Of a stretch of 64,000 nucleotides of DNA, positions 22,146 through 42,200 are shown in pieces (position 1 is the first letter of the stretch; every line of letters begins with the position of its first letter). This DNA is from Cytophagaceae bacterium (GTDB lineage Bacteria; Bacteroidota; Bacteroidia; Cytophagales; Spirosomataceae): the NCBI GenBank assembly GCA_947460975.1, contig CANHGO010000002.1, positions 196,427 through 260,426 of the forward strand. Reading direction: 5' to 3'. Under the pieces are notes generated by a model that worked only from the letters and a program-made list of their open reading frames with translations, ran no database searches and had not been told where the DNA came from. Made by a program: the position numbers and the translations under genes.

Positions 22146-22850
22146 ATGAAAAAACTGATATTAACATGTGCACTAGTGACTTTTGGTCTCATGTCTTTTG
22201 CCCAAAGTTTAAACACATTAACTGCCAAGGAGAAAAGGGCTGGGTTCCAATTATTATTTGACGGAAAGACTTTAAATGGTTGGCATACCTACAACAAACC
22301 GGGTATGATCGGTAATTGCTGGACCGTGGAGGATGGTGTCATTTCTTTTGATATGACCAAAAAAGAACGCGGTGATTTAATTACAGATGCGGAATTTGAA
22401 AACTATGATTTTTCAGTGGAGTGGAGAATTTCAAAAAATGGAAATTCAGGAATTATCTTTAATGTAACGGAAGACCTAAAATACCATAGTACGTATAATA
22501 CAGGTCCTGAAATGCAGGTGCTTGACAATGATGGCCATCCTGATGGAAAAATATTTAATCACCGTTCTGGGGATTTATATGACTTAATTAAATCATCTTC
22601 TGAGCCAGTTAAGCCAGTGGGCGAGTGGAATACAGCTCGTATTGTATGTAATCGTGGTTTGCTACAACAATATTTGAATGGCGTGAAGGTAGTAGAAACA
22701 CGTTACGACGATGCCAATTGGAAAACGATGATTGCCGGATCTAAATTTAAGAACATGCCTGCTTTTGGATTAAACATGAAAGGACGCATTGCGCTTCAGG
22801 ATCACGGAAATCCAGTTTGGTTCAGAAATATTAAGATTAAGAAATTGTAG
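22146..22850 (+). CDS. DUF1080 secreted protein (3-keto-disaccharide hydrolase family)
   Basis: 234 residues with a signal peptide (ends about SFAQS, residue 20). One concanavalin-like DUF1080 domain fills the rest: FQLLFDGKTLNGWH, NCWTVEDGVI, SVEWRISKNGNSGIIF, TGPEMQVLDNDGH and GRIALQDHG. Family members have been shown to hydrolyse 3-keto-glycosides, the products of sugar oxidation at C3; others are only structural. That makes the neighbouring GMC dehydrogenase (39.9-41.6 kb) a possible functional partner (inference). It is transcribed alone, toward the large minus-strand operon, and ends at a bidirectional terminator. Confidence 0.9.
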   Translation: MKKLILTCALVTFGLMSFAQSLNTLTAKEKRAGFQLLFDGKTLNGWHTYNKPGMIGNCWTVEDGVISFDMTKKERGDLITDAEFENYDFSVEWRISKNGNSGIIFNVTEDLKYHSTYNTGPEMQVLDNDGHPDGKIFNHRSGDLYDLIKSSSEPVKPVGEWNTARIVCNRGLLQQYLNGVKVVETRYDDANWKTMIAGSKFKNMPAFGLNMKGRIALQDHGNPVWFRNIKIKKL

Positions 22851-22868
22851 TCTTGTCATTGTGAGAAT

Positions 22869-22903
22869 AAAAAAAATCCGCTCAGATCGAGCGGATTTTT
22901 TTT
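22869..22903. terminator. Bidirectional terminator between DUF1080 and the SGNH hydrolase
   Basis: ATCCGCTC pairs with GAGCGGAT around AGATC, with A and T runs on either side. The T run touches the stop codon of the minus-strand gene, so this closes both the DUF1080 unit and the long minus-strand operon. Confidence 0.9.
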
Positions 22904-23618
22904 ATTTAAAATAGCTCATGATTTCATCCGTAATCATTTGATGCCCTTTTTCATTCGGATGATTTACTTGGGACATGTAGTCGACTAAATTACTGCCACT
23001 TTTTACTTTGTTTTTGTATAGGGCATAGGTATCGATCAGGCCGATTTGAAAGCTCTTAGCTAGTTCTTTGATTTGGTTCGCATGTTGGTCTAGAATCGAA
23101 AGATCATCCTTGATGTCCACTCTTTGGTCTGGACTTGGGGTCAATAAAATTACTTTAATATTTTTTTCTAACGCTAATCGGATCATTTTTTCCCAGGCTA
23201 TTTTTGCTCTTTCAAGCCCCATACCCCGATCATTCAGTGCGTAATCAATAAACAATACATCAGGCTTGTGGGTCAGCACGTCAGCCTCAAATCTTTTTAG
23301 GCCACTTTCCGAATGTTCCCCTCCAATTGAGGTATTGATAACATTGACTACGGTCATTGGATAGGCTGATTTCAGGTCTTTTAAAACCAAAAAGGGATAT
23401 GATGCTAGCGTATTCACCACCGGGGTTTTAAAATATCCGGCGGGAACAGAATGACCATGGAAAACTAAGTTTATGGTCCTATTTTTAGGCCATTCCACCA
23501 ACATTTCTGCTTTGATTTTTTCTAGGTAATTGGCCTTTGAAGCAATTTCCTGCCCATGTAATTGGTTCACAGCAAACAACAAAAACGTAAAAATCAAGTA
23601 TCGGTTTTTCATGATCAT
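22902..23618 (-). CDS. Secreted SGNH/GDSL hydrolase at the end of the heme/DUF1501 operon
   Basis: 238 residues with a signal peptide (LLFAVNQLHGQ). SGNH blocks: FHGHSVPAGY (nucleophile Ser, with H for the usual D before it), NTSIGGEHS (block II Gly), YALNDRG (block III Asn) and NHPNEKGH (block V, N for the usual D, His present). Probably an esterase or deacetylase. The first ATG overlaps the upstream stop (TAATG); a second ATG two codons later gives a more usual MKNRYL signal start. It differs clearly from the SGNH protein at 884. Position in the operon suggests a deacylating step on the same substrate (inference). Confidence 0.85.
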   Translation of the reverse strand: MIMKNRYLIFTFLLFAVNQLHGQEIASKANYLEKIKAEMLVEWPKNRTINLVFHGHSVPAGYFKTPVVNTLASYPFLVLKDLKSAYPMTVVNVINTSIGGEHSESGLKRFEADVLTHKPDVLFIDYALNDRGMGLERAKIAWEKMIRLALEKNIKVILLTPSPDQRVDIKDDLSILDQHANQIKELAKSFQIGLIDTYALYKNKVKSGSNLVDYMSQVNHPNEKGHQMITDEIMSYFK

Positions 23619-25798
23619 TAATTTAAAAAGATTTCATCAACCAGTAGTAACGCTCTTTTATCTTTGGCACCATGCCATTGTGGGATTTTCTCCAGTGGTT
23701 TTGCGATGATTTTCATTTCGCTAAAAAGGGTTGGCTTGAATTTCACATCGATCGCATATAACTCGTGGAATCTCGTTTCTTTTGGAACTGGAACTTTCAT
23801 TATATGTACCCGCTTAAATGCACCGTTCGCGCTTGTTTTCCCCCATATCTCGATGGCTTGAGGTGGGAAAATTCCGGTGGTCAACTCTTCCATAATCCGT
23901 AAGGAAACAATAGAAATGGTTTTAGGTGTTTTGAAATTTAAATTTAATTCCATGTCATTATTTCGCACACCGGTCCAAAAATTAGCCCATGCTGGGGCAT
24001 TGGCACTAAAAGTTCCTAGGTTCCGATCGAAAAACGATTTTGGTCCATTGGCTTGATGCACCCGATTTAATGGTAATACAACCGTGACACTATCTGGGGT
24101 GATCGCACATTTATAATATTCAAAAACAGCTTCATCACTTCCGATCCAGCCTGCTTTAAATGCTCTCGCTCTAATTCTGGTGTTTGAATTAATCAAAACA
24201 TTACCATCGAAAATGGGAGATTTCGAACTGTCAATAGGTGTTCCATCCAACGTATAACGTATCTCAACGCCTTTAATCGTGTGGAATAAGGTGAGTGGAG
24301 CCTTCGTGTCAAAAATGGTTGATGTATTTTTCAACTCAGGCGGGTTTAGCTTTAATGGATTTTTGCCATCGTCTTTAAATCCACCAATGATTTGGACCGA
24401 TTTAAATTTAGTAGATAGCGCTTTGAGGTCTTCCACAGTGAGTGGTGTATCCCAAAGATAAATGGACTGAAGCTTTTTGAATCCTTGCATGGCCACTTGT
24501 AAATCTTGGTAATTTACTTGCGTTCCTGATAGCGAAATACTTTTTAAATGGGTTAATGTTTTTAACGCCAAAAGCCCCTTGGCCGTAATATTGCTAAAGT
24601 TTAATTCCAAGCGCTCTAAGTTTTCAAATTGAGCAATGGTCAACAAATCTGAATCTTTTACTGGCATTTTAGCTACACTTAGAAAAACGATTTGTTTTTT
24701 TATGGCCACTAATTCCTCTAATTTTTTGGAATTAAATTCATTTTTATTGAATATATGAACGCGCAAAGCTGGGGAGTTTTTGGCAACTGTGGCAATCGTC
24801 CGGTACTCGTTGGTTAATTCGTCTATGGTTTCCTGACTCGCCTCTGAAAAGTCATAATTTGTAGCCCCGTCCAGAACAGAATTGAATAAGGTATTCCCCA
24901 TGATTCGGAGTGAATCTGTTGCAGGCAATTCCATCACTTTTTTAGTAAAGGTTGCGTTTCCTTTGATCCAAAGTGCTAAAATCATTTTCTCTTCATCGGT
25001 CAACTGTGGCTGTCCAGAGACCGGCATGTGTTTTTTGTCTTCTAGTGGTAGGTGAATTCGCTCTAATAATAGACTTATTTCAGGTTTTCCTGTGACAAAT
25101 AATTTGCCGGATTTACCCCCTTTTAAAATACCTTCTTTGCTGGACAAATCAAGGTCCCCTTTTTTCTTTTCAGGGTTATGACAGCTCATGCATTTTTTTT
25201 CAAAAATAGGCTTGACCATGTGATCAAAAACAATAGCATCCTCAAGATAGATTTGTTTTCTTTGTTGGAAAGGCTCCAAAACAAAACCATCTCCATGCGT
25301 AAGTTCTGATCCAAAATGGCCAGTCGAGATCAGTAAAATGGACATGAAGCCAATCAGCAATCTCGAATTTAGCTTTTGGTAAAAGGATAAATTTCTGAGC
25401 CAGTACGTACCACTAAAGACAATAAATAAAGTAACGGCTGCCCACTTATGCCAAAACAAGGTGTCTCCCGAATATCCAGATTCTTTTGAAAGAAATAAAC
25501 CAAAAATAGTAGTAAGTCCTGTGAGGGCCGCGCCTGAAATCCAAGCATCAGAAACCCATTGCTCCGCGGTGTCAATCCATGGAGAAGCTTCTCGGGTAAA
25601 TCGGAAAAACTCCCAGGCCATTAACAAAATCAATAACACGATCGGGAAATGTAGGACTAGTGGGTGTAATCTGCCAAAGGACTGAAGCCAAACAGGAACA
25701 ACGATTTGATCCTCAAAGGCCAATAAAAACACTAGAAATACTGCAGATATGAGTACAAATTGTTCAACAATACCCCTCCATTTTTTATTCATACTCAA
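23618..25798 (-). CDS. DUF2231 membrane protein with heme-binding CxxCH, LRR and chitobiase-C-like domains
   Basis: 726 residues in a mosaic. Residues about 10-165 hold about five membrane segments with the DUF2231 motif GRLHPLVLHFP. CMSCH (C203, C206, H207) in a PSCyt1-type domain should bind heme c. Residues about 340-455 are leucine-rich repeats (NLERLELNFSNITAKGL and two to three more). About 480-565 resembles a chitobiase/beta-hexosaminidase C-terminal domain (EIRYTLDGTPIDSSKSP). The end, about 580-725, is a discoidin-like beta domain. Membrane helices put the rest in the periplasm. No catalytic enzyme motif was recognised. The start lies 1 bp after the upstream DUF1501 gene. Confidence 0.82.
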   Translation of the reverse strand: MSMNKKWRGIVEQFVLISAVFLVFLLAFEDQIVVPVWLQSFGRLHPLVLHFPIVLLILLMAWEFFRFTREASPWIDTAEQWVSDAWISGAALTGLTTIFGLFLSKESGYSGDTLFWHKWAAVTLFIVFSGTYWLRNLSFYQKLNSRLLIGFMSILLISTGHFGSELTHGDGFVLEPFQQRKQIYLEDAIVFDHMVKPIFEKKCMSCHNPEKKKGDLDLSSKEGILKGGKSGKLFVTGKPEISLLLERIHLPLEDKKHMPVSGQPQLTDEEKMILALWIKGNATFTKKVMELPATDSLRIMGNTLFNSVLDGATNYDFSEASQETIDELTNEYRTIATVAKNSPALRVHIFNKNEFNSKKLEELVAIKKQIVFLSVAKMPVKDSDLLTIAQFENLERLELNFSNITAKGLLALKTLTHLKSISLSGTQVNYQDLQVAMQGFKKLQSIYLWDTPLTVEDLKALSTKFKSVQIIGGFKDDGKNPLKLNPPELKNTSTIFDTKAPLTLFHTIKGVEIRYTLDGTPIDSSKSPIFDGNVLINSNTRIRARAFKAGWIGSDEAVFEYYKCAITPDSVTVVLPLNRVHQANGPKSFFDRNLGTFSANAPAWANFWTGVRNNDMELNLNFKTPKTISIVSLRIMEELTTGIFPPQAIEIWGKTSANGAFKRVHIMKVPVPKETRFHELYAIDVKFKPTLFSEMKIIAKPLEKIPQWHGAKDKRALLLVDEIFLN

Positions 25799-25799
25799 C

Positions 25800-27254
25800 C
25801 TAGCTTAAGATATCTCGCACCACTTTTCCTGAAATATCTGTTAATCGATACCGCCTGCCTAAATGTTTGAAGATTAATTTCTCATGATTTAAACCTAATG
25901 TATGCAAGACGGTTGCTTGGAAATCATGTACATGGACAGGGTTTTTAATGATATTATAACCCAATTCATCAGTTTCGCCATAGACCATTCCCGGCTTAAT
26001 TCCACCACCTGCCATCCAGATACTGAAACATCTTGGATGATGATCACGGCCATAATTTTCTGGGGTCAATTTCCCTTGGCTGTAACTCGTACGTCCAAAT
26101 TCTCCACCCCAAATCACTAACGTTTCATCCAACAAACCTCTTTGTTTTAAATCGGTTACTAAGGCAGCGGAGGCCTGATCCACGTCTTTGGCTTGGCTTT
26201 TAATTTCAAAAGGAAGGTTTCCATGTTGGTCCCAACCCTGATGATATAATTGGACAAAGCGCACGCCATTTTCTGAAAGTTTACGGGCCAATAAGCAATT
26301 GGCCGCAAAGGTACCCGGAACCAAACAATCTGGCCCATAAAGTTTAACGATATCGTCCGATTCTTTGGACAAATCCATCACTTCTGGTACGGCCGTTTGC
26401 ATCCGATAGGCCATTTCATATTGCTTTACTTTAGCCGTAATTTCAGGATCCCCAAATTCCTCGTAGGACATTTGGTTTAATTGGGCCAACTGGTCCAGCA
26501 TTTCTCGGCGTTCGCCCCTGGCCATTCCCGCAGGATCTTTGATGTATAAAACGGGATCTTCTCCTTTAGAAAATTGTACTCCTTGGTGGATGGAATCTAA
26601 AAATCCATTAGACCAAAGTTTGGAATACACTCCTTGGCCATTCCCAATTCCCCTCGATAATAAAACAGTGAAATCAGGTAAATTTTTATTTTCATTTCCT
26701 AATCCATAGCTCAGCCAAGCTCCCATACTAGGTCGGTTTCCTTGTTGGGATCCCGTTTGTAAAAATGTTAAGGCCGGATCATGATTGATGGCTTCTGTGT
26801 ACATCGACCTAACCACGCATATATCATCCACAATTTTGGAGGTATAGGGCATGATATCACTGATCCAAGTCCCAGACTTACCATATTGCTTAAAATTTGC
26901 GAAGGAAGCGGCTAGCGGAAAAGTGGCTTGATTCGCTGTCATTCCCGTCAGTCGCTGCTCTCCACGCACAGAAGGAGGTAAATCCATCCCATACATTTCA
27001 CATAATTTAGGCTTATAATCAAAGGTCTCTAATTGAGAGGGAGCTCCATTTTGAAACAAATAAATCACACGTTTTGCTTTGGGAGCAAAATGAGGAATGC
27101 CAGGCGTAAATCCTGACTCTTCCCGATCACCTCCATTGAGCAAACCAGGAATCATTAAGGAACCTAAGGCTACACTTCCTAAACCCAAACTCATCGTGGA
27201 AAGGAATCGTCGCCGATTAAAATTCAAACCATGTTCTAATATTTCCTTTTCCAT
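25800..27254 (-). CDS. DUF1501 protein, Tat-exported (copy A)
   Basis: 484 residues. The N-terminus carries a twin-arginine motif (NRRRFLSTMSLGLG, R14-R16). DUF1501 then fills the protein: VIYLFQNGAPSQLETFDYKP, GTWISDIMPYTSKI, SMYTEAINHDPA, GWDQHGNLPFE, IWGGEFGRTSYSQG and GRDHHPRCFSIWMAGGG. The family belongs to the alkaline phosphatase/sulfatase-like fold superfamily; biochemical function is unproven. In Planctomycetes it is almost always paired with a DUF1549/DUF1553 cytochrome protein, as here: that gene ends 3 bp upstream. Exported folded, possibly with a bound metal. Confidence 0.92.
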   Translation of the reverse strand: MEKEILEHGLNFNRRRFLSTMSLGLGSVALGSLMIPGLLNGGDREESGFTPGIPHFAPKAKRVIYLFQNGAPSQLETFDYKPKLCEMYGMDLPPSVRGEQRLTGMTANQATFPLAASFANFKQYGKSGTWISDIMPYTSKIVDDICVVRSMYTEAINHDPALTFLQTGSQQGNRPSMGAWLSYGLGNENKNLPDFTVLLSRGIGNGQGVYSKLWSNGFLDSIHQGVQFSKGEDPVLYIKDPAGMARGERREMLDQLAQLNQMSYEEFGDPEITAKVKQYEMAYRMQTAVPEVMDLSKESDDIVKLYGPDCLVPGTFAANCLLARKLSENGVRFVQLYHQGWDQHGNLPFEIKSQAKDVDQASAALVTDLKQRGLLDETLVIWGGEFGRTSYSQGKLTPENYGRDHHPRCFSIWMAGGGIKPGMVYGETDELGYNIIKNPVHVHDFQATVLHTLGLNHEKLIFKHLGRRYRLTDISGKVVRDILS

Positions 27255-27257
27255 AAT

Positions 27258-29594
27258 TTATGATTTGGTAATGGTTTCCTCTAAATTATAAATGGTATTA
27301 ACGACGCGCATCATGGCGGCTAAAAGTTTTTTATCGACATTAGCCGCGATCGGAAATTCACCCACCGCTAAAATTTTGGTTGCCTGCCCTTGGGTAATTT
27401 TAGCTCTTTGACTTAAGAAATAGGTATTTAAAACCCCTAACTCTTTTTCAGATGGATTTCGGCACACAATTAGCCTGAAAGCCTTTTTGATTTTATCGCT
27501 GCTGTTACTTTTTTCCGTTAATAATTTGGCGGCTAACACTCTGGATGCCTCCAAGACGGTTGGGTCATTTAGCATCATGAGTGCCTGCAATGGCGTATTT
27601 GTTTTCAGCCTTTTCACTTCACATAAATCTCGATTGCTGGCGTCAAAAATACTCATCGTCGGCGGTGGAACCGTCCGCTTGATTAAAGTATAAATCCCTC
27701 TTCGGTATAAACTTTCACCATGATCTTGTACATAAATAGACAATAAGCCTCGACCAGAAGTAGCCCCTTCCCATAAACCAGGTGGCTGATAAGGTTTAAC
27801 GCTCGGCCCACCGATTTTAGGAACTAAAAGTCCACTACTTGCAAGTACGATATCTCTGATATTCTCAGCGTTTACGTGGTAACGAGATGACCTGGATAAA
27901 TAGATATTCTCGGGATCTTTGGCTAATTTTTCAGGGTTGGTAATGGCTGATTGCCTATAAGTTGCAGAAGCAACCATTTGCTTCACGAGGCGCTTGACAT
28001 TCCAGCCATGTTCCATGAAATCGACGGCCAACCAATCTAACAATTTAGGATGCGTCGGCAATTCACCTTGCATACCAAAGTCGCCAGTCGTTTTTACGAT
28101 GCCTTTACCAAAAAACTCTTGCCAAATTTGATTGACAAAAACCCTTGCCGTCAACGGATTTTTTCTGTCAAATAACCACTTAGATAATCCCAGTCTATTT
28201 TTTGGATAATTTTTATTGAACGGCAAAATGGAATTAGGAGTTCCAGGACTCACTTCGTCACCTGGTGCATCATAGGCGCCCCGTTTTAAAATGAATGTTT
28301 TTCTTGCCGTGTCCATGTCGGTCATGACGGATACAATCAAACGATTTGTGTCTTGTTTATTAATGAATTTCAAGATGTTTTTAACATCATCGTTGCTGAT
28401 TTCCATTAATGGTTTTTTCGCATAGGTCTCTGGACCACCAATCACCGATTCGATGCCAACCTCTTTGATGTTATTAAAAAAGGCAAACATTTTATAGTAA
28501 TCTTTCTGCGAAAATGGATCATATTTGTGGTCATGGCAATGGGCACATTCTAGGGTCATGCCCAAAAATGCTTTGCCGAATAAATCGTTTCGATCCGTCA
28601 CATAGCTTAGTCGATATTCTTCTTGGATGACTCCTCCTTCTTCCGTGATCTTATGGTTTCTGTTGAAACCCGTGGCTAATAATAATTCTTTGGTTTGATT
28701 AGGCCTTGCGGGATTGATCAAAAAGTCGCCGGCTAGTTGCCAAGTAACAAACTGGTCATAAGGCATATTTTTATTTAAGGCATAAATAACCCAATCTCTC
28801 CAAGGCCATTGAGTCCGATATCCATCATCTTGGTAGCCGTGTGAATCTGCATATCGCGCTAAATCAAGCCAATATATAGCCATTTTTTCTCCGTATGCTG
28901 GATTTTTTAATAGCTCGTCGACCATCTTCTCATATGCATTCGGACTTTTGTCGGCCATGAATCGGTCCATCATGGAAAGGGTAGGAGGCAAGCCGGTTAA
29001 GTCGATGCTTAGGCGTTTTAATAAGCGCTCTTTATCCGCTTCCTCATTGGGTTTTAAGCCTTTTTGCTCTTGTTTTTCTGCGATGAAATAATCGATTTCA
29101 TTTTTTGCCCAAGATTCATTGTCTATTTCGGGCAATTCAGGTTTTTTGGGAGCGACAAAAGACCAATGCTTCTCATATTTCGCCCCTTGCTTAATCCATT
29201 TTTTGATCACCGAAATCTCATACCCATTTAATTTTAGGTTGGACGTCGCCGGTGGCATTAATTTAGTCGAGTCCTTTGTTGTCATTCGAAGGTATGCCTC
29301 TGATTCGTTAGGTTCACCTGCCACCCAAGCATGTGCTCCCGGATGTTCTTTTAATGCTTGGAATGCTAATGCGGGATCATCTAAACGTAAACCTGCTTGG
29401 CGTTTTTTGGCATCCGGTCCATGACAGGCAAAGCACTTGTCAGATAAAATGGGACGCACATCAAAATTATAGCTAATCTCATTCGGCATTTCTTCTTCGG
29501 ATTCCTGCACACCCGAATTTCGATTGCATGCATTAAATGTCCAAACGATGGAGATTAAAACAACTGAAAATAAGAGTAATTTTTTATGTTTCAT
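27258..29594 (-). CDS. PSCyt1-DUF1549-DUF1553 heme protein (lipoprotein-like)
   Basis: 778 residues. A signal ending FNAC (C23) suggests a lipoprotein. The PSCyt1 domain has CFACH (C54, C57, H58). DUF1549 follows (about 160-370: LTGLPPTLSMMDRF, YWLDLARYADSHGYQ, ATGFNRNHKITEEGG) and includes a second heme-type motif CAHCH in LECAHCHDHKYDPF. DUF1553 (about 460-720) contains NPLTARVFVNQIWQEFFG and LQALMMLNDP. The family is abundant in Planctomycetes and of unknown enzymatic role; two CxxCH motifs point to redox work in the periplasm. It is in the same operon as both DUF1501 genes, overlapping the second by 1 bp. Confidence 0.92.
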   Translation of the reverse strand: MKHKKLLLFSVVLISIVWTFNACNRNSGVQESEEEMPNEISYNFDVRPILSDKCFACHGPDAKKRQAGLRLDDPALAFQALKEHPGAHAWVAGEPNESEAYLRMTTKDSTKLMPPATSNLKLNGYEISVIKKWIKQGAKYEKHWSFVAPKKPELPEIDNESWAKNEIDYFIAEKQEQKGLKPNEEADKERLLKRLSIDLTGLPPTLSMMDRFMADKSPNAYEKMVDELLKNPAYGEKMAIYWLDLARYADSHGYQDDGYRTQWPWRDWVIYALNKNMPYDQFVTWQLAGDFLINPARPNQTKELLLATGFNRNHKITEEGGVIQEEYRLSYVTDRNDLFGKAFLGMTLECAHCHDHKYDPFSQKDYYKMFAFFNNIKEVGIESVIGGPETYAKKPLMEISNDDVKNILKFINKQDTNRLIVSVMTDMDTARKTFILKRGAYDAPGDEVSPGTPNSILPFNKNYPKNRLGLSKWLFDRKNPLTARVFVNQIWQEFFGKGIVKTTGDFGMQGELPTHPKLLDWLAVDFMEHGWNVKRLVKQMVASATYRQSAITNPEKLAKDPENIYLSRSSRYHVNAENIRDIVLASSGLLVPKIGGPSVKPYQPPGLWEGATSGRGLLSIYVQDHGESLYRRGIYTLIKRTVPPPTMSIFDASNRDLCEVKRLKTNTPLQALMMLNDPTVLEASRVLAAKLLTEKSNSSDKIKKAFRLIVCRNPSEKELGVLNTYFLSQRAKITQGQATKILAVGEFPIAANVDKKLLAAMMRVVNTIYNLEETITKS

Positions 29595-31024: not shown

Positions 31025-31035
31025 TGCAATAATAA

Positions 31036-33834: not shown

Positions 33835-33866
33835 TGCTTCGTAATTATTTAATTAGGCTTTTAAAA

Positions 33867-33904: not shown

Positions 33905-33930
33905 GAATATTAAATATAATAAACTGTAAA

Positions 33931-35439
33931 TTATAGATACCCTTGATTTTGAGTTAAATTTTTATTAATCAAAATTTGTGGTGCTGGAATTGGCAAATAA
34001 TATTCAAAGTCAGAATACACATAATCCAAAGCATTGAAAGCAATACCACCTCTAGCTACGGTAGGATTTACTTTTTCTTGTGCTCCATGCGCATTCATGA
34101 AAGCAGTCAATTGTGTCGGAGTATTCGTTCTTTGAAGATCAAACCAACGGTGATTTTCAAAAGCAAGTTCAACACGTCTTTCTTTCAATACTGCTGTTCT
34201 GAAAGCTTCTTTAGATAAACCATCTAAGGCGCCTAATCCAGCTCTTTTTCTTACTTGGTTTAAGTAATCATAAGCCTCAGCATTAGGTCCAGAAGCCTCA
34301 TTGATGGATTCTGCTAGCATTAATAACACATCAGCATATCTTAATACAGGCCAGTTGTTATCTGTACGACCCGTAATGGTGTGTGCGTATTGATACTTGC
34401 TTACATATGGAATCCCAACAAAAGTGCCATTCAAAGTATAGCCTGGTTGCACAGAAATTGCTTTTCTCACATCACCTGCTTCGTAGGCATTGATCATATC
34501 ACGCGTAGGAATATTTCTACCGCCTGGAGTTGTATTAGCAAAACCAGTTACAGATCCAGCAGAAAGTCTTGGTGCAAAAACATACATGAAGTTACTATGC
34601 TCTCCCAAATCATTTCCTCCTTGGTATTGCACTTCAAAAATAGATTCTACTCCATTCTTTCTAGCCGGATCAAAATTATCTTTGTAGTTCGCATTCAACG
34701 CATATCCTAGGGTAGTTACTTGCTTTAAAGTAGTACTAGCTGCTGCATAATTTTTCTGCGTTAAGTATACTTTTCCTAATAAACTTAAGGCAGCTCCTTG
34801 AGTTGCACGACCTCTTAAAGCAGCCCTAGCAGGAAGCAATTTAGATGCATCAGCTAAATCAGCTAAGATTTGCTTGTACACCTCCGCTTGTGGTGATCTC
34901 ACTAAATCAAAGGCCTCATTTGGATTTGTTAGCGTTTTGGTAGCCAAAACTACATCTCCAAAATAACGCACTAAATTAAAGTAGTGATAGGCACGAATAA
35001 ATTTGAATTCTCCTTCCAAAACTCCTTTAGCTGTCGCGTCAATTTTACTTGCAGCTAGTTTTTCTAATGCATAATTGATATTATACATCGTAGAATAATG
35101 GTTATTCCAAAGTGAAGCAATTTCACCATTTCCTTGATTAACAGTGGAATATTCAAAAGCTTCCCAACCAGCTGCACCCCCACGATCTAAGGGATTAAAA
35201 TCAAAGGTTGTATTATCCGACATCATTTCTTGTTGGATATAGGCAGAGTTGGTTATTGTTTGCAACTGGCCATATACTCCATTCAAGGCTTGCTCGAATT
35301 GCGTCTGATTCTGATAGAACAAATCACGACCTATTCTTGTAGGGTCGGTCGTAGTCAGAAAGTCCTCTTTACACGATATCTGTGTTAAGCAAAGGGACAA
35401 GATGATATAAAATGATATTTTTTTCATGTTTCGATTCAT
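33931..35439 (-). CDS. RagB/SusD family surface glycan-binding lipoprotein
   Basis: 502 residues. The signal ends in the lipobox region TQISC (C23). TPR-like helices and the SusD fold are recognisable: DFLTTTDPTRI, NGVYGQLQ, FIRAYHYFNLVRYFGDV, PVLRYADVLLMLAESINEA, NQVRKRAG and ERRVELAFENHRWFDLQR. SusD proteins sit on the cell surface and cap the SusC barrel, passing glycans or peptides into it. The first ATG overlaps the susC stop (TAATG); a start four codons later, MKKISFYI, would give a more usual signal peptide. Specificity is not deducible. Confidence 0.95.
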   Translation of the reverse strand: MNRNMKKISFYIILSLCLTQISCKEDFLTTTDPTRIGRDLFYQNQTQFEQALNGVYGQLQTITNSAYIQQEMMSDNTTFDFNPLDRGGAAGWEAFEYSTVNQGNGEIASLWNNHYSTMYNINYALEKLAASKIDATAKGVLEGEFKFIRAYHYFNLVRYFGDVVLATKTLTNPNEAFDLVRSPQAEVYKQILADLADASKLLPARAALRGRATQGAALSLLGKVYLTQKNYAAASTTLKQVTTLGYALNANYKDNFDPARKNGVESIFEVQYQGGNDLGEHSNFMYVFAPRLSAGSVTGFANTTPGGRNIPTRDMINAYEAGDVRKAISVQPGYTLNGTFVGIPYVSKYQYAHTITGRTDNNWPVLRYADVLLMLAESINEASGPNAEAYDYLNQVRKRAGLGALDGLSKEAFRTAVLKERRVELAFENHRWFDLQRTNTPTQLTAFMNAHGAQEKVNPTVARGGIAFNALDYVYSDFEYYLPIPAPQILINKNLTQNQGYL

Positions 35440-38400
35440 TATAAGTTTAATTTGATACCTACTGCTAATGTACGTGGAACTGGATAAGACTCATCGTCAT
35501 TATTCATTTCGGTACCTCCTCTAACTCCCGCATCTGGGTTATTTCCTGGGTAGTTGGTAAATAAGAATAGATTATTAGCGGTAAAGAAAATTCGGGCATC
35601 ACTGAATACCGATTTAGATTTAGGTAATGTATAGCCTAATGTAACCGCTTTCAACCAAATGTGGCTACCATCATATACATAGCGCTCGCTACTTTCACGT
35701 GACCACTTAAAGTAGTTTGTACCACCTTGAGAGTTCTTTGCATTTGGATTGGATCCAGGATTAGCGGCTGAGCGCCAACGATCCTTCGCCTTAGTTAACA
35801 CGTTGAATACACCGTCCATATTCATGGTTGATGCTTCAATGTTACGGTAGATGTCAAAATTTTGAGCGCCAACAAATAACACATTTATGTCAAAATTGCG
35901 GTAGTCTGCTGCAACAGTCCAGCCCCAAGTAAAGTCAGGATTTGGATTACCAATTTCAACCATGTCTTGCGTATCATAAGAAACAACACCGTCACCGTTG
36001 GTATCAGCAAACTTCATACCCCCAGGGATCACACCATCTTGCTTAGCCCAGGCGTCGATTTCTGCTTGCGTATTGAAAATACCCAATTTCTTGTATCCAT
36101 AAATCATACCAATCGGTCGGCCTACTTTGTTTACGTTATAACCTCCGTAGAAACTACCGTAATACAACATGTCATTGGCTCCTTTAATGGCTAAAATTTT
36201 GCTCCTATTAACAGAAACATTGAAATTAGTTCTGAAGTTTACAGGACCTAAATTAGATCTGTAGTCAACACTTAATTCGACACCTTTATTTTCTACTTGA
36301 CCAATATTATCCAAACTGGTTGTAAAACCAGAAACGGCTGGGATTGATACAGGAAGTAACATGTCGTTGGTCAACTTTCTATAATACTCAAACGTGAAAG
36401 TCAATTTGTTGTTAAACGTTGCCAAGTCCATACCTAAATCTAATTGGTCTGATTTCTCCCACTTCAATGACGAGTTGGCAAATTGACTAATTACCTTTCC
36501 AGCTGCAAATGAATTGTTTAAGATATAGTTATTTATTCCAACGAAAGCTAAACTTGGGTAGTTACCGATGTTATTGTTACCCGTCACACCCCAGCTCGCA
36601 CGTAATTTCATGTCATTGATGAAAGGTAAATCTTTCATGAACGGTTCTTCCGAAATTCTCCAGCCGATAGATGCTGCTGGGAAGTCTCCAAACTTATTGA
36701 ATTCACCAAATCGTGAACTACCTTCCCTTCTAAAAGATGCCGACAATAAATATTTGTCTTTGTAAGAGTAATTTGCACGAGCAAAATAAGCCAATAAAGT
36801 CCAGCCATTCTCATACGAGTTGGCTGATCTAATCGAGGCCGCACCTACATAACGAACTAAATCATCAGGGAATGTATTTCCTGACGCATCGATTCCATAT
36901 AAATTCTCTTCTTGAGCTGTGAAACCAAGCATGGCATCCAATTTTTGGTCTTCACCAATTTTAGGATTGTAAGTTAATAATTGGTCAAATGAATAGTTGA
37001 ACAATCGGTCTGTAATATCCCTTGCTGTTGCTATCCTTGGAGGTGCACCCGCCTGTCCTGATGCCACTGAGGCTCCAATCGTAGAAGGTACATATTCCTT
37101 AAATGCATTGTAGTTCAATTTGGCATTGGCTGAAGACTTAAACTTCAAAGAAGGCAAAATAGTGAACTCAGCAAAAGCATTCGCTAACACGTCGGCAATA
37201 TTTCTCCTACGAGTAACATTTTTAAGCAAAAACAATGGATTGGGGAAACCAAAAGCTCCGTCAACTCCACCGATATAAGGCCTCATACTTCCGTCAGCAT
37301 TATAGATAGGTTCGCGTGGATCCATTAAAAGGGCTCCTCCTACTAATGCACTACGTCCGTCCGTATTGGCAATGTTTTGCTTCGTGATACTTCCGTTTAC
37401 GTTTAATCCTACATTTAAGAACTTATTAACTTGACCTCCTATATTACTACGGATAGATACACGCTCATAATCTGTATTAACAATAGATCCTGCTTCTTTA
37501 TAGTAACCTACTGAAAACATCGATTTCACAGGTCCTTTACCTGACGTAATTGTTAAATTGGCATCTGTATAAGGAGCATTATTATTTAGTATCGCACCAA
37601 ACCAGTCCGTTGAAAATTTGGTTTGCTCTGGATAACGAAAGCCTAATGGCACGTCTTCAATCGTTGGTTCTTTTTGTCTGAAATACCTGAAATTATCTTC
37701 AAATATTTCTTTTTTGAACTGAGCGAATTCAACTCCATTTAATACAGGAGTTCTACGAGATTCTGGAATATTTTGAATACCATGATCTAAGGTAAAGTTG
37801 ATGTTAACTTTACCATCTTTAGCATTTTTGGTATTAATTAAAACCACACCATTTGATCCTCTAGCACCGTAAATCGCCGTAGAAGCCGCATCTTTTAAGA
37901 TGGAAATGCTTTCAATATCATTTGGGTTAAAGTTTTGACCTACTGAGGTACCCACGACAAAACCGTCGATTACATACAATGGATCACTACCAGCCCCCAA
38001 AGAACCGATACCACGTACACGAACCTCAAACAATCCACCAGGTGTACCACTTTTTTGCTTCACAGTAACACCTGCTGCACGTCCTTGTAGCATTTGATTT
38101 AAATTGTTCGCTGGTTGCTCACCGATATCCTTCATCCCAATCACCGAAATGGCTGAGGTAATATCTTGCTTTCTTTGAGAACCATAACCTACGACAACCA
38201 CTTCAGACAGCTCTTTCAAGTTATCTTCTAAGGTTACGTCAATGATGGCACGGTTTCTAACCGTTTCAGATTTACTACTCATCCCTACAGATGAGAAAAC
38301 AAGGACTGAATTTGCCCCTGAACCTACTTTAATGGTATAATTACCATCAGCACTTGTTACGCTACCATTGCTGGTACCTTTTTCCGTTACGGAAACACCA

Positions 38401-38510
38401 GGAATTCCTGTCCCGTCAGATGAGCTAACTTTTCCTTTAACTTGCAGACTTTGTGCAAATCCCTGGAAAATCAATAGCATCATAAATAATGTTAATTGAA
38501 TTTTTTTCAT
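35439..38510 (-). CDS. SusC/RagA family TonB-dependent outer membrane transporter
   Basis: 1023 residues. Signal peptide (ends GFAQS, about residue 20), then a carboxypeptidase-D-like domain (VKGKVSSSDGTGIPGVSV ... GSVTSADGNYTI, about 22-95), a TonB-box/SusC signature SEVVVVGYGSQRKQDIT, the plug (LNQMLQGRAAGVTVKQKSG, RVRGIGS, DPLYVIDGF) and a 22-strand barrel. There is no N-terminal STN signalling domain, so direct coupling to an ECF sigma/anti-sigma pair is not expected. It imports the substrate captured by SusD, using TonB energy. It is the first gene of the long minus-strand operon, with a palindrome upstream. Confidence 0.96.
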   Translation of the reverse strand: MKKIQLTLFMMLLIFQGFAQSLQVKGKVSSSDGTGIPGVSVTEKGTSNGSVTSADGNYTIKVGSGANSVLVFSSVGMSSKSETVRNRAIIDVTLEDNLKELSEVVVVGYGSQRKQDITSAISVIGMKDIGEQPANNLNQMLQGRAAGVTVKQKSGTPGGLFEVRVRGIGSLGAGSDPLYVIDGFVVGTSVGQNFNPNDIESISILKDAASTAIYGARGSNGVVLINTKNAKDGKVNINFTLDHGIQNIPESRRTPVLNGVEFAQFKKEIFEDNFRYFRQKEPTIEDVPLGFRYPEQTKFSTDWFGAILNNNAPYTDANLTITSGKGPVKSMFSVGYYKEAGSIVNTDYERVSIRSNIGGQVNKFLNVGLNVNGSITKQNIANTDGRSALVGGALLMDPREPIYNADGSMRPYIGGVDGAFGFPNPLFLLKNVTRRRNIADVLANAFAEFTILPSLKFKSSANAKLNYNAFKEYVPSTIGASVASGQAGAPPRIATARDITDRLFNYSFDQLLTYNPKIGEDQKLDAMLGFTAQEENLYGIDASGNTFPDDLVRYVGAASIRSANSYENGWTLLAYFARANYSYKDKYLLSASFRREGSSRFGEFNKFGDFPAASIGWRISEEPFMKDLPFINDMKLRASWGVTGNNNIGNYPSLAFVGINNYILNNSFAAGKVISQFANSSLKWEKSDQLDLGMDLATFNNKLTFTFEYYRKLTNDMLLPVSIPAVSGFTTSLDNIGQVENKGVELSVDYRSNLGPVNFRTNFNVSVNRSKILAIKGANDMLYYGSFYGGYNVNKVGRPIGMIYGYKKLGIFNTQAEIDAWAKQDGVIPGGMKFADTNGDGVVSYDTQDMVEIGNPNPDFTWGWTVAADYRNFDINVLFVGAQNFDIYRNIEASTMNMDGVFNVLTKAKDRWRSAANPGSNPNAKNSQGGTNYFKWSRESSERYVYDGSHIWLKAVTLGYTLPKSKSVFSDARIFFTANNLFLFTNYPGNNPDAGVRGGTEMNNDDESYPVPRTLAVGIKLNL

Positions 38511-38573
38511 AGAAATGATTTTAGGTTAATTATGATTAATACAATGCCTAAATCTATATTTTTTTAATTTCGA

Positions 38574-38601
38574 AACTATCCTTATGCACATAAGGATAGT
38601 T
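38574..38601. promoter_or_regulatory. Perfect 28-bp palindrome upstream of susC, candidate operator
   Basis: AACTATCCTTATG, 2 bp, CATAAGGATAGTT: 13-bp arms without mismatch, 64-91 bp before the susC start. A third copy of the half-site, CATAAGAATA, lies at 38613-38622, 24 bp from the right-hand CATAAGGATA in the same orientation. This looks like a dimer-binding operator plus an extra half-site. An RNA hairpin in the leader is the alternative. The regulator is unknown and not encoded next to the site. Confidence 0.6.
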
Positions 38602-38762: not shown

Positions 38763-38802
38763 CAAAAAAAACATCCACCACTCAGAAATGAGTGGTGGAT
38801 GT
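38763..38802 (-). terminator. Rho-independent terminator after the SMP-30 gene
   Basis: ACATCCACCACTCA and TGAGTGGTGGATGT are perfect 14-bp arms around a GAAA tetraloop. On the minus strand the stem is followed by seven T. It separates the dehydrogenase/lactonase unit from susC. Confidence 0.92.
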
Positions 38803-38828
38803 CTATTGAATGGGGTTTTTAATATACA

Positions 38829-39851
38829 TTAAAAACCGATTCCAGTCGTTTTGGTCTTCACACGAAGTAAATTCATATCTGCGGTGATAAATAAGGTCGT
38901 CCCATCTTCACCGAAGGCACAGTTGGCCGTCGCCGACCCCGCCTCAATCCTTCCCAATAATTTTCCTTCAGGGCTAATGATTAAAACCCCACCAGGACCA
39001 GTCGCCCATAAGTTACCTTCTTTATCAACTTTGAATCCATCAGGAGCTCCTTTCCAACCTTTTTTAGCTAATGGTCCTGCATCGTAAAATACTTTACCCG
39101 TTCCTAAATTTCCATCAGGATTTACCTGATAGGCCATCCAAATTAACCCTTTCATGTCGGACTGACCCACATATAAGATTTTCTCATCCGGGCTAAAAGC
39201 CAATCCATTTGGACGTGCAAGATCCTTTGCCTGAAGCGTTAATTTACCTTTTGTATCGATGCGATAAACGCCTTGAAAAGCTATTTCTTTGGCGGGTTCA
39301 TCTTTGCCACGACCGGGCAATCCGTAGGGAGGATCTGTGAAAAAATAATCGCCAGAGCTTTTTTGAACTAAATCATTGGGGCTATTTAATTTTTTTCCCT
39401 CAAATAAATGAGCCAATGTTTTTTTCTTATCGGGTCTATTTAATGGCATTTCTGCAATTCTGCGATCGCCATGTTCGCAAGAAACTAGATTGCCTTTTTT
39501 GTTGATAATTAATCCATTTGAACCTGGTTCTTCCGAATATATACCCGTTCCCGTATATCCCGAAGGCCTTAAGAATTCTTCAATTCCTTTGGCCGCTGAC
39601 CATTTGTGTATGACATTTTCAGGCACGTCGGAGAATAATAAATACCCTCCTTTTTTTACCCAAACAGGTCCTTCGGACCAAGTATACCCTGTGCCTAAGA
39701 TTTCTATTTTAGACGTTGTGTCTATTAAATGATCTAAACCTGGATCCAAGCGGTGAATTTTACCGATGGTCGGAAAGCTAGATTGCTGAGCTGTTGCCAT
39801 ATTTCCTAAAAAGCCTACCAGCAAGCTGGTCATTGTGATTAGTTTTTTCAT
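38829..39851 (-). CDS. Secreted SMP-30/gluconolactonase-like protein
   Basis: 340 residues with a signal peptide (MTSLLVGFLGNMATAQ). Six-bladed propeller motifs of the SMP-30 family are clear: TWSEGPVWVKKGGYLLFSD (metal-binding Glu in SEGP), SNGLIINKKGNLVSCEHG, LNSPNDLVQKSSGDYFFTDP (metal-binding Asn), RPNGLAFSPDEKILYV and PDGFKVDKEGNLWATG (metal-binding Asp). Members hydrolyse aldonolactones with a divalent metal. Being periplasmic and next to a GMC dehydrogenase, it could open the lactone that sugar oxidation at C1 would form. Its start is 9 bp after a terminator-like hairpin, so most of its expression may depend on read-through from the GMC gene. Confidence 0.9.
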   Translation of the reverse strand: MKKLITMTSLLVGFLGNMATAQQSSFPTIGKIHRLDPGLDHLIDTTSKIEILGTGYTWSEGPVWVKKGGYLLFSDVPENVIHKWSAAKGIEEFLRPSGYTGTGIYSEEPGSNGLIINKKGNLVSCEHGDRRIAEMPLNRPDKKKTLAHLFEGKKLNSPNDLVQKSSGDYFFTDPPYGLPGRGKDEPAKEIAFQGVYRIDTKGKLTLQAKDLARPNGLAFSPDEKILYVGQSDMKGLIWMAYQVNPDGNLGTGKVFYDAGPLAKKGWKGAPDGFKVDKEGNLWATGPGGVLIISPEGKLLGRIEAGSATANCAFGEDGTTLFITADMNLLRVKTKTTGIGF

Positions 39852-39860
39852 AATAGAAGA

Positions 39861-39892
39861 AAAAAAAATGCGGACATTAAGCCCGCATTTTT
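39861..39892 (-). terminator. Hairpin with T run between the GMC gene and the SMP-30 start
   Basis: AAAAATGCGG pairs with CCGCATTTTT around ACATTAAGC. On the minus strand the stem runs into a T tract that ends about 16 bp before the SMP-30 ATG. There is no room for a separate promoter, so it behaves as an attenuator or RNA-processing site within the three-gene unit. Confidence 0.75.
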
Positions 39893-39897
39893 AAATT

Positions 39898-41610
39898 TTA
39901 TAAATGTTTCTTTTTCATTTCCTTCACGGCAAAATCAGCTGCCCTGGCGGTTAAGGCCATGTAAGTCAGCGACGGATTTACGCAAGAAGTAGAAGTCATA
40001 CAAGCACCATCCGTGACAAAAACATTTTTACACGCATGGACTTGGTTGTTGCCATTTAATACGGACGTTTTTGGATCACGGCCCATACGAGCAGTTCCCA
40101 TTTCATGAATAGCCATTCCCGGATAGGATCCATTGTCAAATGCCTTCACATTTTTCAAACCTGCGGCTTCTAACATTTCGCCGGCATCGTTCATGATGTC
40201 TTTACGCATTTTTCGCTCATTTTCCTTGAACTCCGCGTCAAACACCACCACTGGCATTCCCCATTTATCTTTGGTTGTTGGGTCTAAATACATTTTATTT
40301 TCATGGTAAGGCAATGTCTCGCCAAATCCACTTAAAGCCATACCCCATGGTCCTGGATGTGTCAATGATTCTTTATAATCTGCACCGAAGCTCAAATCAC
40401 CTATTCCTCTGTTCCAACCCGAACGCGATCCGCTTCCTTGGAATCCAAATCCACGTACATAATCACGCTTGTCGTTTCCAATATTTCTATAACGTGGAAT
40501 GTAAATACCGTTTGGTCTGCGACCGATGTAATATTTATCTTCATCACCTTCCCATGTGCCTGTAGCGCCAATTTTGAAATGATGATCCATCAAATTATGT
40601 CCTAATTCTCCTGAGTCATTACCAAATCCATTTTGGAAACGATTCGATTTTGAATTCAATAATAATGCGGTGGAACTGACCGTCGAACCACACACAAAAA
40701 TGACTTTAGCATAATATTCTTTTACCTCATGCGTCACCGTATCAATCACGCGAACCCCTTTAGCACGTTGCTTAGTAGCATCATAAATGATTTCAGACAC
40801 CAATGAATCGGGTCTTAAAGTCAACAATCCAGTTTTAGCTGCCGGAGGAAGCGTACAAGATTGTGAACTAAAATAGGCGCCATAAGGACAACCTAGTCGA
40901 CATTTATTGCGGTACTGGCAAGCAGAACGTCCCACACCTAATTGGGCTTGTTTCGCTTCAGATAAGTTGGCCACACGCCCTATCGTCATAATACGACCCG
41001 GAAAATTTTTCTCGATGCGCTTCCGAACTTCTTTCTCCACGCAATACATGTCCATAGGCTTTAAAAACTCTGAATCGGGCAATTGAGGTAATCCCAAAGC
41101 CTCTCCAGAAATACCTACATGTTTCTCTACATAGGAATACCAAGGAGCAATTTCATTGTACCGGATCGGCCAGTCAACGGCAATGCCTTCTTTTATATTG
41201 GCCTCAAAATCGATATCACTTAATCGATATGTTTGGCGACCCCACATGATGGATTTTCCGCCAACAATATTAGGTCTATACCAGTCAAATCTTTTTTCTT
41301 CTTTATATAAGGAATCAGAATCATTCATCCAGTATTTTTCAGTCATCTCGTTGTATGGATAATCACGAGATAATTTTGGATGTGATGCCTTTTGTTCCTG
41401 AGTTAATAAACCATTGTATTTGAAATCCCAAGGATCTTTATAGCTAGGCTCATATCCTGTGATGTGCTCCATTTGCTTTCCTCGGTCTAATACCAAAGTT
41501 CTCATGCCTTTTTCTGTTAATTCTTTGGCGGCATATCCCCCTGAAACTCCAGATCCTACGACAATGGCATCATAGGTAATTGTTTTTATAGCGTCTATAT
41601 TTAAATTCAT
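39898..41610 (-). CDS. GMC-family FAD sugar dehydrogenase (large subunit, gluconate/glucose/glucoside dehydrogenase type)
   Basis: 570 residues. The FAD-binding motif VVGSGVSGGYAAKELTEKG is at residues 17-35. C-terminal GMC motifs HEMGTARMGRDP and SCVNPSLTYMALTARAAD are present. C231, C237 and C241 (ACQYRNKCRLGCPYGAY) lie where FAD-glucose and fructose dehydrogenase large subunits carry their 3Fe-4S cysteines, with C252 as an extra. There is no signal peptide; in this family the large subunit is exported attached to the Tat-tagged small subunit, which here is encoded 23 bp upstream. The expected reaction is oxidation of a sugar or aldonate in the periplasm with transfer to a cytochrome c. Whether C1, C2 or C3 is oxidised is open. 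Confidence 0.92.
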   Translation of the reverse strand: MNLNIDAIKTITYDAIVVGSGVSGGYAAKELTEKGMRTLVLDRGKQMEHITGYEPSYKDPWDFKYNGLLTQEQKASHPKLSRDYPYNEMTEKYWMNDSDSLYKEEKRFDWYRPNIVGGKSIMWGRQTYRLSDIDFEANIKEGIAVDWPIRYNEIAPWYSYVEKHVGISGEALGLPQLPDSEFLKPMDMYCVEKEVRKRIEKNFPGRIMTIGRVANLSEAKQAQLGVGRSACQYRNKCRLGCPYGAYFSSQSCTLPPAAKTGLLTLRPDSLVSEIIYDATKQRAKGVRVIDTVTHEVKEYYAKVIFVCGSTVSSTALLLNSKSNRFQNGFGNDSGELGHNLMDHHFKIGATGTWEGDEDKYYIGRRPNGIYIPRYRNIGNDKRDYVRGFGFQGSGSRSGWNRGIGDLSFGADYKESLTHPGPWGMALSGFGETLPYHENKMYLDPTTKDKWGMPVVVFDAEFKENERKMRKDIMNDAGEMLEAAGLKNVKAFDNGSYPGMAIHEMGTARMGRDPKTSVLNGNNQVHACKNVFVTDGACMTSTSCVNPSLTYMALTARAADFAVKEMKKKHL

Positions 41611-41633
41611 TGTTCAATTAGTTCAGGTCAAAA

Positions 41634-42200
41634 TTATAAAGTCCACGTTTTTTGATTAGGCCCTAATGGCATACATCCATCAAATTTACCGGGAATGGGA
41701 AGATACTCTAAGGCCTCAGTTGCGCCTATTTTACTCGTAAAATATCCTGTGGTGGCTAATTCTTTGATCATAAAAAAGAAAGGAATGCTGCCTTTTTTTG
41801 CTTTTCTAGCCGCATCACCTTCTAGCATACAAGCTGTCAGTACTTCTTTTTTCTGAATGTCATTTGCCTCGACAAAACCTTTACCTGTTTTAGTTTTACA
41901 ATCCGCATCTAATTTGGTCAAGCCAGCATAAAATGTTTCTTGATCTGCTTTTGTATAACAGTCTTGAACCACATTAATGATGAATTTCTCCGCACCAGCC
42001 GCCTTAGCACCCGGTGTTTTAGTGGTAGGAATAATCACATCAGCAATGGAGGCGATCAAGGTGGTTTGATCCGCAGTAAAACTTACAAAAGTTCCATTAT
42101 TGGTTTTTTGGCCCATAATACCAGCCATGGCGGGAGCTGAAATCATGCCTCCCATTAACGCAGCGACGCGTTGAACTGCCTCTCTTCTATTTATATTCAT
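41634..42200 (-). CDS. Gluconate 2-dehydrogenase subunit 3 family protein (Tat-exported small subunit)
   Basis: 188 residues. A twin-arginine signal (NRREAVQRVAALMGGMISAPAMAG) is followed by the subunit 3 domain: TLIASIADVIIPTTKTPGAKAAG, VQDCYTKADQETFYAGL, CKTKTGKGF and FFFMIKELATTGYFTSKIGATEALEYLPIPG. In characterised three-subunit dehydrogenases this protein chaperones and carries the FAD subunit through the Tat pore. It is the first gene of the unit with GMC and SMP-30, behind a -7 box and divergent from prmC. No diheme cytochrome c subunit follows, unlike gluconate 2-dehydrogenase, so another heme protein must accept the electrons. Confidence 0.92.
   Translation of the reverse strand: MNINRREAVQRVAALMGGMISAPAMAGIMGQKTNNGTFVSFTADQTTLIASIADVIIPTTKTPGAKAAGAEKFIINVVQDCYTKADQETFYAGLTKLDADCKTKTGKGFVEANDIQKKEVLTACMLEGDAARKAKKGSIPFFFMIKELATTGYFTSKIGATEALEYLPIPGKFDGCMPLGPNQKTWTL

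Follow-up and report, generated by a model that had tools for sequence, protein, structure and literature searches.

How are sugars processed behind an outer-membrane importer of the SusC/SusD type when the genes that follow it encode heme proteins and DUF1501 proteins in place of glycoside hydrolases (GHs)? The question is raised by a stretch of 64,000 nucleotides (the window) from a Cytophagaceae bacterium (assembly GCA_947460975.1, contig CANHGO010000002.1, positions 196,427 to 260,426), whose genome (G000) is a 1.5-Mb freshwater metagenome-assembled genome (MAG) of the genus Aquirufa, 62.6% complete. In SusCD polysaccharide utilization loci (PULs), a susC-susD pair heads the substrate operon. 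An adjacent susC-susD pair is present in the window, leading eight minus-strand genes in tandem that run from 38510 to 22902 by open reading frame (ORF) and Pfam calls, with intergenic gaps of -1 to 96 bp, and Pfam finds no GH or polysaccharide lyase (PL) in 22902-38510, an SGNH esterase-like gene being the only exception named. An original prediction, made from the sequence without database searches, had listed these genes, domains and places, all of which were recovered by ORF and Pfam calls, and its spacing and single strand are borne out by the ORF coordinates; it had proposed an envelope pathway that oxidises a glycoside and cleaves the product. The explanation favoured here, to which we give almost an even chance, is that the operon is a rhamnose-linked, GH-free SusCD locus whose pairs of heme and DUF1501 proteins oxidise sugars in the periplasm.

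Two conserved modules joined behind SusC and SusD

The first gene encodes a SusC/RagA TonB-linked outer-membrane importer (35439..38510; by Pfam, and with 822 bits on TIGR04056 against a cut-off of 368), and the second a SusD-family surface lipoprotein (33931..35439; PF07980/PF14322) with a lipobox-like Cys23 placed by eye. PSCytA (31036..33834) consists of a DUF2231 membrane domain, two PSCyt1 domains, DUF1549 and DUF1553, with CxxCH motifs at residues 185, 336 and 611; it is followed by DUF1501b (29594..31024), a DUF1501 protein with the twin-arginine motif NRREFLQ. PSCytB (27258..29594) is a lipoprotein-like PSCyt1-DUF1549-DUF1553 protein with a lipobox-like Cys (by eye) and CxxCH at 54 and 350, and it precedes DUF1501a (25800..27254), which carries the twin-arginine motif NRRRFLS. 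PSCyt1, DUF1549 and DUF1553 with CxxCH motifs are thus found beside a second conserved family, the arrangement that defines PSCyt/PSD clusters. The operon ends with a membrane heme protein of the domain order DUF2231-PSCyt1-LRR-chitobiase-C (23618..25798; TTG start, one CxxCH) and the SGNH/GDSL esterase-like gene (22902..23618; PF13472), which locus maps place in this position only in near relatives.

Conservation of this order was followed in two sets of loci, mapped by a greedy longest-ORF rule with bit-score cut-offs for locus content that were set by us. One set is centred on PSCytB (80 loci, L031-L110, being the best 80 of 123 relatives among named genomes) and the other on DUF1501b (52 loci: 50 stretches, L117-L166, with L113 and L114); some organisms are represented in both sets, whose loci lack phylogenetic independence, and all Fisher values given below are therefore optimistic. 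PSCytA is directly followed by DUF1501b in 51 of the 52 DUF1501b loci and in all 21 of the 80 PSCytB loci that hold PSCytA. The sole exception, L122, was scored as a miss when DUF1501b was lost to longer antisense ORFs, and looks like an artefact of ORF calling, the stretch having been picked for its DUF1501b match. SusC-SusD lies directly upstream in 12 of the 52 loci, with six more that start at a contig edge, and in 14 of the 21, with three more at an edge. PSCytB is followed by DUF1501a in 77 of 80 loci, all exceptions running into a contig edge, and a DUF2231-LRR-type protein lies downstream of PSCytB in 70 of 80, the other ten ending at a contig edge; in many PSCytB loci, module members have between them a gene for a beta-propeller protein of roughly 341 aa (NHL/SGL by Pfam in L060). 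The conserved co-occurrence of susCD with DUF1501 and DUF1549/DUF1553 genes, which had been put forward as a check, is therefore observed, and from the adjacency counts in both sets the window operon combines two modules, [SusCD-PSCytA-DUF1501b] and [PSCytB-DUF1501a-DUF2231LRR].

The SusCD pair seems to have been inherited with the locus, because full-length SusD proteins encoded upstream score 574-799 against the HMM of the locus and other SusD proteins nearby only 285-405. As the 16 genomes checked have 9 to 56 SusD genes each, chance would hardly account for a constant SusCD neighbour. DUF1501b itself is, judged by sequence similarity, a sharply bounded orthologue group: of the 291 genomes searched within the order, 59 have a match at E<=1e-60, as do 17 of the 395 within the phylum, and among the matches listed all have E<=1e-228. 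An alignment of 16 DUF1501b sequences from several families (A4) has a mean column identity of 83% and 262 invariant columns, which is unusually constrained for an exported protein, and the window copy includes a conserved His-rich stretch, GHILHSRHQYHWHT.

Carbohydrate genes accompany some of the relatives, such as a ROK kinase and a sugar transporter in Dyadobacter (L096) and sulfatases with GH27 in Niabella (L103). PSCytB-DUF1501a-DUF2231LRR stands behind a sugar-porter MFS transporter in two Dyadobacter loci (L096 by Pfam, L104 by eye), the former also with SusC-SusD beside its ROK kinase, which suggests that the core module serves a different sugar there. In a named Aquirufa, a 217-aa protein with no Pfam match and an 807-aa beta-propeller/phosphoesterase directly follow the operon (L045:16066-19247), and ORFs similar in size come after it in L046, L048, L050 and L055. 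Elsewhere in G000, L111 (G000:C1:415000-434900) contains a 1060-aa PSCyt protein, a DUF1501 protein and a 473-aa DUF2231 heme protein, with no SusCD in the stretch.

A palindrome upstream of SusC and of rhamnose genes

A palindromic operator-like site of 28 bp (38574..38601; 13-bp arms, 2-bp centre) lies 63 bp upstream of the susC start. With up to three mismatches, 27 such sites were found in 16 of the 38 genomes of the genus, one to three per genome; the reversed pattern, searched as a control, gave no site, and under a simple base model about 0.0035 sites would be expected in 2.5 Mb. All 15 of the sites that were mapped are directly upstream of a gene, in five classes: window-type SusC (five: the window, L170, L173, L188 and L189), SusC of a second operon described below (five: L167, L168, L183, L192 and L194, the last two showing only the operon start), RhaEW (two: L169 and L181), a GH78-type gene (two: L171 and L172), and another SusCD set with sulfatases (one: L170). 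By coordinates, two further sites are 76-78 bp upstream of RhaEW in G014 and G033, and sites with four mismatches precede RhaEW in L180 and L184. G000 has two sites, that of the window and that of L167; no second copy was found in the window at up to six mismatches.

The identity of RhaEW as a rhamnulose-phosphate aldolase/lactaldehyde dehydrogenase has been verified by experiment, and the protein is reported in Bacteroidetes (Rodionova et al. 2013, PMC3870299). The protein of Aquirufa scores 942.7 on TIGR02632 (cut-off 567.75), and behind its gene are a rhamnose-isomerase-like gene (below the cut-off of its family), an FGGY kinase and LutA/LutB/LutC-like genes. The operator common to the window operon and the RhaEW operon points to an L-rhamnose regulon in one sub-clade, here meaning near relatives by sequence identity. 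In the literature consulted, which leaves subscription papers outside its coverage, there is no functional assignment and no SusCD or rhamnose link for DUF1501, DUF1549, DUF1553 or PSCyt, nor is a cytochrome or DUF mentioned in the accessible text of PMC8857213; relative to that literature, the rhamnose link of a PSCyt/DUF1501 SusCD locus is new.

Outside the mapped sites, L041 has a variant palindrome upstream of SusC with 12-bp arms and a 7-bp centre, and in L127 and L128 a GntR gene and RhaEW are upstream of PSCytA. A 338-aa GntR protein was considered as the regulator and set aside, its gene lying beside leucine genes in Aquirufa in both mapped best matches (L175 and L176, by eye). On one contig (G017:C14), a second copy of PSCytA is about 31 kb from RhaEW. 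In L170 (G012:C2), two SusC genes whose products are nearly identical at the N-terminus lie a few kb apart; both have an operator of their own, and one of them is followed by SusD and two sulfatase-like genes; recombination between SusCD operons is possible there.

Second operon, DUF1501 fold and heme proteins

The second operon with this operator was read in G029 (98% complete) as operator-SusC-SusD-FGGAP-DUF1080-PVC-type heme protein (904 aa)-DUF4432-P402-TIM-Gfo/Idh/MocA, P402 being a 402-aa protein with no Pfam or NCBIfam match (L153:14830-16038 and relatives). Downstream of Gfo, a sugar ABC ATPase, permease and binding protein were recognized by eye (L183 and L191). The families were typed on relatives in L153, where the heme protein has 96.3 bits on TIGR02603 (above cut-off) and 81.5 on TIGR02604 (below), and where DUF4432, the TIM barrel and a levoglucosan-dehydrogenase-like Gfo protein (332.7 of 650 bits) were also assigned; DUF1080 and FG-GAP were typed on L167 (G000 contig C6).

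Members of this operon recur near DUF1501b in other families: the heme protein in 14 of 52 loci, DUF4432, P402 and the TIM barrel each in the same 8, Gfo in 6, and a related subtype of DUF1080 in 11. Around the 59 PSCytB loci that lack PSCytA each of them, the related DUF1080 included, is found in none (Fisher 8e-6 for the heme protein, 0.0017 for counts such as that of DUF4432 and 1e-4 for DUF1080). In L113, DUF4432, P402, TIM and Gfo come directly after SusC-SusD-PSCytA-DUF1501b. Among the genomes of the genus, the heme protein occurs in 17 of 20 with PSCytA and in 5 of 18 without it (Fisher 7e-4), G059 being counted as without PSCytA and G009 as with it on the evidence of a 54-aa fragment.

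The AF2 model of DUF1501a has an alkaline-phosphatase/sulfatase fold according to Foldseek and VIA, and DUF1501 is accordingly predicted to belong to the alkaline-phosphatase superfamily. The absence of any GH or lyase fold, as originally reported, therefore stands for GHs and PLs as far as Pfam recognizes them, whereas DUF1501 proves to have a predicted fold of hydrolase type, though not that of a GH. H158, invariant in an alignment of 46 DUF1501 sequences, occupies the spacing of the nucleophile when compared by eye (H-x-P-x6-T-G versus C-x-P-x6-T-G), and E385-F386 align with the sulfatase metal motif D-N in hhalign; the usual nucleophile is apparently replaced by His. DUF1549/DUF1553 matched no solved fold, and NCBIfam has no family above cut-off for the DUF1501 or PSCyt proteins. 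Two CxxCH motifs are present in 54 of 68 PSCytA sequences and three in the other 14; in PSCytB both motifs are invariant in an alignment of 49 sequences, and 90 of 91 sequences have two. Because the motifs are conserved and cytochrome c assembly genes (PF01578) are present in G000, covalent heme in the PSCyt proteins is plausible.

From this context we infer a substrate, a path for the electrons and a reaction for the DUF1501 and PSCyt proteins. SusC/SusD would carry an oligosaccharide or glycoside that contains rhamnose into the periplasm, where two obligate pairs, the membrane-anchored cytochrome PSCytA with Tat-exported DUF1501b and the lipoprotein cytochrome PSCytB with DUF1501a, would each oxidise the sugar or perform an oxidation-coupled cleavage. 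The c-hemes and the DUF2231 membrane domains would hand electrons to the respiratory chain. The second operon, under the same operator, would supply the envelope PVC-type heme protein and a DUF1080 enzyme that cleaves 3-keto-glycosides, as well as the sugar ABC importer and cytoplasmic DUF4432, TIM-barrel and Gfo/Idh/MocA enzymes, and freed rhamnose would pass through RhaI, the kinase, RhaEW and lactate oxidation. A wider generalization, which we consider doubtful, is that DUF1501 and PSCyt (DUF1549/DUF1553) proteins form a new two-component class of periplasmic sugar-oxidising enzymes, in which a metal protein of alkaline-phosphatase fold with His for the nucleophile has as its one-to-one partner a c-heme protein whose fold has no match; they would replace GHs in GH-free SusCD loci of Bacteroidota, acting on rhamnosides here, and by extension the same would apply to the numerous copies reported from Planctomycetes and Verrucomicrobia.

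Flanking genes, alternative explanations and known systems

The original prediction had sought its oxidising and cleaving enzymes beside the operon, and the neighbours that it named are present: SMP-30 (lactonase-like, 38829..39851), a GMC dehydrogenase (39898..41610) and twin-arginine subunit 3 (41634..42200), all on the minus strand, and the convergent plus-strand DUF1080 gene of the 3-keto-disaccharide hydrolase family (22146..22850; PF06439, 178.8 bits). The GMC large subunit and Tat-exported subunit 3 at 39898-42200 have the composition of LacABC and are outside the operon; the unit has no cytochrome c gene of its own, no CxxCH occurs in SMP-30, GMC or subunit 3, and the next gene upstream of subunit 3 is a plus-strand methyltransferase. 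Terminator-like minus-strand hairpins separate SMP-30 from the susC operon (38769..38804, 16 pairs) and GMC from SMP-30 (39864..39892, 12 pairs). The 16 terminator-like sites in the scan of the window are no overall excess over a shuffle mean of 17.4, and those other than these two never exceed 9 pairs. Because of the two hairpins and the convergent DUF1080, the flanking GMC, SMP-30 and DUF1080 genes are probably transcribed separately.

The order subunit-3/GMC/SMP-30 upstream of SusC recurs in near relatives (L173, L188 and L189), and in L038 genes in this order, with GMC and SMP-30, directly precede PSCytA, as if the SusC-SusD pair, absent there, had been lost. None of the three genes is found within 5-7 kb upstream of SusC in Aquirufa ecclesiirivi (L186) or a pond MAG (L187); most other flanks stop 1-2 kb past SusC, and the HMMs for GMC and subunit 3 were built from two sequences each, so that the absence of both from all 59 PSCytB-only loci and their presence in 1 of 21 loci with PSCytA, like the absence of subunit 3 from all 52 DUF1501b loci, are weak misses. 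GMC-like ORFs occur in 2 of those 52 loci, and DUF1080 is beside the cluster in 5 of the 21 loci with PSCytA (L031, L033, L037, L038 and L041). There may be a looser link between GMC dehydrogenases and PSCyt/DUF1501 loci. In at least 12 of the 38 genus genomes (by coordinates), a full-length DUF1501 gene that is not part of the SusCD locus has a subunit-3 gene no more than about 8 kb away, another subunit-3 gene is about 13-14 kb from SusC in G016 and G034, and a second GMC/subunit-3 pair adjoins the third PSCyt/DUF1501 locus of G000 (L112, G000:C3:112000-131900), where it is divergent and accompanied by an NHL-type gene, genes resembling a metabolite/H+ symporter and a sulfatase, and a LacI-like HTH ORF (by eye). 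G007, G013 and G020 lack PSCytA and have one weak DUF1501 match only, yet each has three subunit-3 genes.

One alternative, which we consider quite unlikely, is that the flanking GMC/subunit 3, SMP-30 and DUF1080 are themselves the oxidising and cleaving enzymes of the locus, in the manner of LacABC; because the fetched flanks test it poorly, the probability accorded to it was raised slightly. A periplasmic 3-keto pathway made up of LacABC and DUF1080 has been described (PMC9007349), and the pair at L112 and the subunit-3 genes near DUF1501 and SusC, together with the few GMC-like ORFs, agree with such an arrangement; the two hairpins and the convergent orientation part these genes from the operon, the window holds no second operator, the misses just given point the same way if weakly, and three genomes keep subunit 3 without PSCytA. 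As adjacency to the operon is moreover seen only in near relatives, as far as the flanks reach, the GMC-centred pathway was set aside and the flanking genes are not retained as partners. The oxidative envelope pathway as such gains from the second operon with its common operator and from the heme protein, DUF1080, Gfo/Idh/MocA and TIM neighbours of DUF1501b, and the original prediction was right in direction and probably wrong in partners. An ordinary rhamnose-glycan PUL with dispersed hydrolases is an unlikely but weightier competitor: GH78 enzymes and sulfatases encoded elsewhere would cleave the glycan, DUF1501 would be an ester hydrolase like a sulfatase or phosphodiesterase, and PSCyt would serve only respiration or heme handling. 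It has to accommodate the apparent His at the nucleophile position (invariant H158, placed by eye), the reading E-F in place of D-N at the second metal motif, and the one-to-one tie of DUF1501 to heme proteins, which a plain esterase would not need. The palindrome might instead form a hairpin in the RNA or serve as a leader element for SusCD genes in general, the rhamnose link being accidental; 11 of the 15 mapped sites precede SusC and, at 63 bp from the start codon, the site may lie in the transcript. The sites at RhaEW and GH78 are not SusC leaders, however, and G000 has nine SusD genes and only two sites; this explanation too is judged quite unlikely.

Several observations count against the rhamnose-linked oxidative locus that we favour. 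The sites at RhaEW carry three to four mismatches; no site with up to five was found upstream of RhaEW in L178 and L179 or upstream of SusC in L186 and L187 (loci from A. nivalisilvae, G021, A. ecclesiirivi, G034, and the pond MAG G016), and RhaEW was not found in G000, an assembly 62.6% complete. A relaxed operator search of the 80 loci L031-L110 and the 50 loci L117-L166, with a fixed spacing that would miss variants such as the copy in L041, returned only the genus members L032 and L039, and in the two other PSCyt/DUF1501 loci of G000 the operator is missing, the best matches having 6 and 8 mismatches. Because of these loci, the operator link of the window SusC to rhamnose rests on one sub-clade. 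A search for GntR proteins in the genus identified no rhamnose-responsive regulator, and in the fetched stretches of the 52 DUF1501b loci RhaEW is found in 2 and GH78 and RhaI in none. The heme protein, DUF4432, P402, TIM and Gfo are absent from the fetched flanks of all 21 loci with both PSCytA and PSCytB, and confidence in the favoured explanation was lowered slightly on this account; in window-like loci the second-operon set would therefore have to contribute from another part of the genome, which is where it lies in G000 and G029. DUF1080 of any kind occurs in 14 of 52, 4 of 59 and 5 of 21 loci (DUF1501b, PSCytB without PSCytA, and both, respectively), so that the related subtype shows the contrast more clearly than does the family as a whole, and five genomes of the genus have the heme protein without PSCytA. 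The literature found, with subscription papers outside its coverage, reports no activity of DUF1501, DUF1549 or DUF1553.

If the heme and DUF1501 pairs do oxidise rhamnose-containing sugars, these bacteria degrade sugars partly by oxidation in the envelope and not by hydrolysis alone. The tie of two defined DUF1501-PSCyt pairs to SusCD, to the rhamnose-linked operator and to the operon of 3-keto-sugar type makes the question of function testable in named Aquirufa and Runella carriers, and the operator context is a concrete handle on a possible role of heme proteins in the common but functionally puzzling PSCyt/PSD families. A carbohydrate role mirroring that of glycoside hydrolases was already proposed for PSCyt genes, with sulfatase neighbours noted (He et al. 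2017, PMC5615132); PSCyt2 and PSD1 domains are common in some lake Verrucomicrobia (PMC5615132), and one Planctomycete genome has 41 copies of each (PMC2754498).

The operon resembles several known systems and departs from each of them. The PSCyt-PSD clusters of Planctomycetes and Verrucomicrobia have the same PSCyt1/PSCyt2/PSD1 architectures beside unknown genes; here the genes are in Bacteroidota, behind SusCD, in two defined modules, with an operator that points to rhamnose and a predicted fold for DUF1501. Compared with NPP phosphodiesterases and S1 sulfatases of the alkaline-phosphatase superfamily, DUF1501 appears to have the nucleophile (by eye) and one metal motif replaced. LacABC glycoside 3-dehydrogenase and DUF1080, with examples in Bacteroidota, carry out periplasmic glycoside oxidation followed by cleavage (PMC9007349), a sequence of steps like that proposed here, whereas the recurring partners of DUF1501b are the PVC-type heme protein and PSCyt rather than GMC/subunit 3. 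L-rhamnose regulons share RhaEW, rhamnose isomerase, kinase and lactate oxidation genes with the regulon indicated here, but SusC does not occur in the main text of PMC3870299. The operon is headed by susC-susD like any SusCD PUL; unlike such a PUL it was found to contain no GH or PL, and its catalytic candidates are heme proteins and DUF1501.

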